Source: a virus
Strand: one strand, 5' to 3'
DNA: 64,000 bases
IMG/VR virus record: IMGVR_UViG_3300023178_000030
Location: 1-64,000 of that record
Part shown: positions 59,235-59,306 of the stretch, one piece after another
How positions within the stretch are numbered: position 1 is the stretch's first letter
Layout: every line of letters starts with the position of its first letter
Translations under genes and position numbers: made by a program
The notes under the pieces: generated by a model
Database searches by the model: none
Told to the model about the DNA's origin: nothing
What the model saw: the letters and a program-made list of their open reading frames with translations, nothing else

Positions 59235-59306
59235 TTACTTGTTTGCAATGTACATTGTAACTTCAAAACCAAATCTCATTTCAGTATATTCTGGTGACTT
59301 CCACAT
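59235..59306 (-). CDS. pqqA: PqqA, PQQ precursor peptide (23 aa)
   Basis: On the minus strand, ATG 59306-59304 follows AAGGAG with 8-bp spacing and ends at TAA 59235-59237. The 23-residue product starts [12 protein letters not shown] and contains GFEVTMY. It has Glu at 15 and Tyr at 19, the positions cross-linked to form pyrroloquinoline quinone in the 23-residue Klebsiella PqqA. Length, MW start, Pro5 and the EVTxY core all agree. No pqqBCDE genes are in the window, so host enzymes would have to process it. A terminator lies just downstream on both strands. Confidence 0.88.
   Translation of the reverse strand: [23 protein letters not shown]

Follow-up and report, generated by a model that had tools for sequence, protein, structure and literature searches.

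A phage-borne gene for the PQQ precursor peptide PqqA recurs in several tailed-phage lineages

We report that a short minus-strand gene in a viral contig is, by every family-defining sequence criterion, a phage-borne pqqA, the gene for the precursor peptide of the cofactor PQQ. The reading that we favour, at a probability of roughly 0.8, is that it would serve as a precursor-dosage auxiliary metabolic gene keeping host PQQ and methanol dehydrogenase supplied. The stretch of DNA analysed (henceforth referred to as the window) comprises positions 1 to 64,000 of IMG/VR record IMGVR_UViG_3300023178_000030, and the features discussed here are as follows:

59235-59306, minus strand: pqqA, encoding the 23-residue PQQ precursor peptide plus stop, with matches to PF08042 and TIGR02107.
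59312-59318, minus strand: Shine-Dalgarno sequence AAGGAG, ~7 nt upstream of the pqqA ATG.
59187-59214, both strands: terminator-like bidirectional hairpin with T-runs on either strand, just downstream of pqqA and common to pqqA and the convergent genes.
58782-59126, plus strand: convergent neighbour resembling the T4 baseplate wedge protein gp53 (weak PF11246 match, E 0.0027, below cut-off).
58127-58711, plus strand: conserved neighbour with a signal peptide-like start and no Pfam match, used as the query for finding relatives.
62302-62622, plus strand: c551/c552-type cytochrome c with a signal peptide-like start and a CLACH haem motif.

The pqqA frame opens with an ATG at 59306, closes with a TAA at 59235 after 23 residues and sits in an intergenic gap with annotatable genes on both sides. 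The peptide scored 38.5 bits (E 1.1e-9) against Pfam PF08042 (PqqA), for which the cut-off is 21.1 bits, and 44 bits (E 1.3e-11) against the NCBIfam equivalog TIGR02107 (PqqA), for which it is 20 bits, and both models were matched over their full length. It was also the sole PqqA match in a six-frame search of the complete 78,962-base record (E 8.5e-10), and the same search of 14 control genomes returned no match; comparison of the peptide with PDB chains likewise gave none. As in the bacterial PqqA of Klebsiella, Methylophilaceae and the marine genome TMED22, there are 23 residues, an MW start, Pro5 and the E-x-x-x-Y spacing (E15, Y19), preceded by a ribosome-binding site, whereas the phage copy stands solo, without pqqBCDE, on a phage genome and differs from that of TMED22 at three residues. 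The first-pass annotation, made from the letters alone, had called a PqqA gene here, and its coordinates, strand, sequence and ribosome-binding site all agree with the window sequence, as does the identity of the product with the two family scores; the search against PF08042 that it proposed thus gave a match above the cut-off. A chance open reading frame is ruled out by these scores together with the selection and conservation described below. Because the hairpin with its T-runs lies directly downstream, pqqA resembles a small, separately transcribed unit that converges on the gene to its left; no firm promoter was recognised for it.

Over the first 8 kb of the window, 70% of the length aligned with the Methylophilales phage Melnitz at 71% identity, and the same region also aligned, less well, with the SAR11 phages HTVC008M and Mosig. 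Melnitz is a T4-like phage of OM43, and genes for gp44/45/46, UvsX, a helicase, a primase, ribonucleotide reductase, PhoH and baseplate proteins could be recognised from the window translations. Alignment and gene content place the window in a Melnitz-like phage of the T4 type, and the record, judged by Melnitz, is probably a fragment of a ~140 kb genome; a search of the window for tRNA and Rfam families found none. The product of 58127-58711 retrieved relatives at 100%, 74%, 74% and 39% identity. An identical pqqA is held by a 37.7-kb contig, and in one of the relatives with 74% identity in this neighbouring protein (L247) pqqA, at 6727 on the minus strand, occupies the same convergent position beside a gp53-like homologue (5635-5967), so that the conservation of the frame in relatives, which the first-pass annotation had named as a test, is found in the same context. 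Another relative (L246) has no pqqA, but its contig stops before the expected place. PqqA is absent from the SAR11 T4-like relatives Mosig and HTVC008M, and a search with the Melnitz terminase yielded only fragments of ~140-kb genomes, with no pqqA on those fragments, a result of little weight. Host contamination is ruled out as the source of the gene by its presence in isolate phage genomes: in the window it is placed among viral genes of Melnitz-like T4 content, and the same gene occurs in nine sequenced isolates.

Those isolates emerged from a tblastn survey of 50,697 phage records, in which the matches fell in 12 records, namely nine Methylophilales phages, one uncultured freshwater phage and two contigs labelled "Acinetobacter phage". 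The nine (MEP301, MEP401, MEP402, P19250A, Venkman, Melnitz and three Melnitz variants) are the phages reached by our queries, such that any Methylophilales phage that lacks pqqA and has no relationship to the queries could be missed; MEP431-434 appear in the taxonomy and were not among the tblastn matches. Queries modelled on the Klebsiella, Pseudomonas and Methylobacterium types of PqqA brought in no further phages. In six phage records pqqA is unannotated or covered by a coding sequence on the opposite strand, the hit table shows no annotation or a hypothetical protein for the remaining ones, and the label pqqA is absent from the annotations of all nine Methylophilales isolates. No PHROG family matches the product either. 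The first-pass annotation expected most annotation to miss such a gene, and its length, below the customary ORF cut-offs, is the reason why it has escaped notice. The Acinetobacter phage MD-2021a was considered as a phage with a pqq operon and rejected, as the content of CAKLQF020000010.1 (ppk, pqqB, pqqC, pqqD and a radical SAM gene) looks like that of a bacterial chromosome. Both CAKLQF020000010.1 and CAKLQH020000055.1 bear this phage name, and the label of the first is probably wrong.

Four pattern scans of IMG/VR recovered at least ~323 contigs with PqqA and at least ~120 distinct viral PqqA peptides. The gene is not peculiar to the window phage but widespread, which corrects the first-pass annotation. 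At 50% identity the terminases of the pqqA-bearing contigs separate into nine groups, and at E<1e-10 into five, and since these groups are separate pqqA is, as far as terminases can tell, common to several unrelated tailed-phage lineages. Among the ~323 matches listed, a second pqq gene beside viral pqqA was seen only in L276 (IMG/VR 3300019280_001311, 110-1159, minus strand), where pqqA is followed by pqqB (TIGR02108, 403 bits) and a Mu-like gpT/Phage_capsid_4 major capsid gene lies immediately upstream of the pair. A further viral record of 72 kb (G006, IMG/VR 3300025120_009955; 3990-8784 of locus L387) combines pqqA with methanol genes, encoding a PQQ dehydrogenase of the methanol/ethanol family (608 bits) and a formate dehydrogenase alpha subunit (885 bits), as well as an RNA polymerase omega-like protein, GroEL and tail-fibre-like proteins. 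Two contigs (G061 and G062) that seemed to pair pqqA with cytochrome c were set aside, as their flanks look chromosomal and hold no terminase of the searched family. A third form of the PqqA peptide, ending in [KR], is represented by loci L581-L673, viral contigs from a set in which record lengths reach 372 kb.

How the viral genes vary bears on whether they are maintained. Glu15 and Tyr19, whose retention the first-pass annotation had proposed to examine, are both kept in 211/211 viral matches listed, with codons 15 and 19 left free in the pattern, although patterns requiring the two residues had been the first to retrieve most of these loci; the independent part of the test is one scan of 120 rows, with 17 new matches and 0 exceptions. 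Pro5, Arg11, Gly13 and Phe14 are invariant despite varied codons, at positions that were free in both scans used. Across 154 distinct viral pqqA genes pooled pS was 0.66 and pooled pN/pS 0.20, the latter partly conditioned by the search pattern. An RBS-like motif precedes 217/219 viral pqqA genes, and terminator-like hairpins lie downstream of 68/177, compared to 2.8 expected from shuffles. Overall, the substitution pattern indicates that viral pqqA is under purifying selection, with synonymous change near-saturated. Carriage is nevertheless patchy. Among relatives of at least 28 kb with a P19250A-type terminase, pqqA is present in 5/11, which refutes universality of the gene in that group. 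In the relative G072 (84% identity around the site) the alignment to P19250A ends at 914 and resumes at 1069, and the ~154-bp segment with pqqA and its upstream region is absent, leaving a clean empty site:

~8118 in locus L577, compared with P19250A (locus L123): empty site for the pqqA cassette, ~154 bp.

With carriage in 5/11 and a clean empty site, pqqA is therefore best described as an accessory cassette, which selection keeps where it is present, and not as an essential gene. The same patchiness, together with the many dispersed pqqA copies of Methylophilaceae (PMC4109929), would suit a scenario in which solo copies of the host were repeatedly acquired by recombination and persist without benefit; we regard this as unlikely in view of the purifying selection (pS 0.66, pN/pS 0.20), the reactive residues kept in 211/211, the RBS in 217/219, and the fact that the gene spans several unrelated groups of terminases and occurs in each of the nine isolates recovered.

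The phage peptides also carry information on the host. Bacterial matches listed for the combined phage and bacterial PqqA pattern came almost only from Methylophilaceae and Methylophaga, and phage PqqA with V[MC]N[KR] ends match the Methylophilaceae type. Nearest to the window PqqA among the matches listed, with the three differences mentioned above, is the peptide of TMED22, a marine metagenome-assembled genome under the label betaproteobacterium; in this genome pqqA, pqqB and pqqC stand in a row, and PQQ alcohol dehydrogenases are encoded as well. Dehydrogenases of this kind (TIGR03075) were found in 10/10 genomes tested with matching PqqA types, and several of these genomes have more than one PQQ dehydrogenase. 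The 23-residue peptide and the relationship to Melnitz suggest a TMED22-like or OM43-like host for the window phage. We counted 1-12 pqqA copies per Methylophilaceae genome; 3-12 copies, usually with one pqqBCDE set, have been reported for this family (PMC4109929). Such copy numbers beside a single pqqBCDE set point to precursor demand and to selection on precursor dosage.

PqqE, together with PqqD, cross-links the Glu and Tyr of PqqA, and one PqqA is consumed per PQQ. Because of this one-for-one consumption, pqqA is the natural gene to carry alone, and the near-absence of pqqB-E beside viral pqqA fits a supply of precursor only. Under the precursor-dosage reading, a lone phage gene, equipped with an RBS and a terminator, would yield extra PqqA, in which host PqqD/PqqE would join Glu15 to Tyr19; PQQ, completed by PqqB, PqqC and a protease, would then load the periplasmic methanol dehydrogenase (XoxF/MxaF). 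If the virus shuts off host expression, the stable PqqB-E could stay while the consumed precursor would run out, so that pqqA alone would be enough for methanol oxidation, hence energy and C1 carbon, to continue while host gene expression falls. We infer that the gene would be expressed in infection, that host enzymes would use its product, that PQQ would rise and that the phage would gain in fitness. The proposal of the first-pass annotation that the gene could raise PQQ output in a host with pqqBCDE may be held more firmly than before, because the phage PqqA types match those of methylotrophs and all nine isolates carry the gene. Counting against PqqA supply as the limiting step for PQQ, overexpression of pqqAB in Acetobacter raised PQQ by 29% and that of pqqABCDE eightfold (PMC7936290).

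Two further readings assign the peptide another task. Small phage peptides often inhibit host enzymes, and an enzyme-less PqqA could bind competitively, occupying PqqD/PqqE or titrating the pathway so as to block host PQQ or redirect methanol metabolism. However, no viral match listed has lost the cross-linked Glu and Tyr, whereas in a decoy they should go missing at least now and then, the phage peptides resemble the methylotroph substrate over their whole length, and the gene of the methanol-dehydrogenase family on one phage record argues for supply; a decoy function is accordingly very improbable. Equally remote is a use of extra PQQ in redox protection, by another quinoprotein or through release on lysis, which would draw on the ability of PQQ to diffuse as a redox cofactor that many bacteria import (PMC12124388) and on the genomes with more than one PQQ dehydrogenase, whereas the methylotroph association and the record joining pqqA with methanol/ethanol-family and formate dehydrogenases favour methanol oxidation.

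Precursor supply may have a companion in the window lineage. The cytochrome at 62302-62622 scored 28.9 bits against PF00034, matched c551/c552 chains in the PDB (E 2.5e-20) and PHROG phrog_36206 (unknown function), and is 43-45% identical to cytochromes of OM43-type genomes; tblastn of the phage collection gave no match to it. Among the records tested Pfam detected it only in the window population, the counterpart in L247 being divergent. It could possibly be an electron acceptor or partner in the periplasmic chain of methanol dehydrogenase, although the link is weak. A broader reading, which we consider evenly balanced, is that phages of methylotrophs commonly use solo pqqA as an auxiliary gene, gained by several unrelated tailed-phage lineages, and that in the window lineage, where a periplasmic c-type cytochrome is encoded alongside it, some phages may strengthen cofactor supply and electron removal at methanol dehydrogenase together. 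Beyond the window, the same record carries a PurN-like formyl transferase and an IscA/SufA-like Fe-S gene (13288-13902 and 1370-1741 in locus L389), both candidate metabolic genes.

Phage pqqA as such is already known; what appears to be new is how widely it occurs, that cultured model phages carry it although their annotations omit it, and that it takes the form of a solo cassette. It was reported in 2020 in the T4-like Lake Baikal virus population VP_266, with a predicted Methylophilaceae host, and proposed as an auxiliary metabolic gene (PMC7678222). That was one freshwater population with methanol dehydrogenase, whereas here pqqA usually occurs without it, in many lineages and in cultured phages. 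The main texts of the Melnitz, MEP401, MEP301 and Venkman papers do not mention phage pqqA; these belong to the open-licence literature, and further reports may exist. The medium used for H5P1 in the Melnitz study contains 1 nM PQQ (PMC9004378). Solo pqqA copies of Methylophilaceae and other methylotrophs are similarly dispersed singles feeding one pqqBCDE set (PMC4109929, PMC9851590), although they are chromosomal and not phage-borne. By analogy only, pqqA resembles psbA and hli, auxiliary metabolic genes of cyanophages, in supplying the fastest-used component of a host energy pathway, but that component is here a 23-residue cofactor precursor used stoichiometrically and not an enzyme or photosystem protein.

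In coastal seas, methanol is removed by methylotrophs such as OM43. Should pqqA prove common among their phages, the viral entry point into C1 metabolism would be the supply of the PQQ cofactor, an idea that is directly testable with phage-host pairs in culture (Venkman and Melnitz on H5P1, MEP301 on HTCC2181). The gene may also help to recognise methylotroph phages from sequence, and it argues for small-ORF-aware annotation of phage genomes. Overall, the presence of pqqA in all nine Methylophilales phages found suggests that these viruses keep host methanol oxidation supplied during infection.
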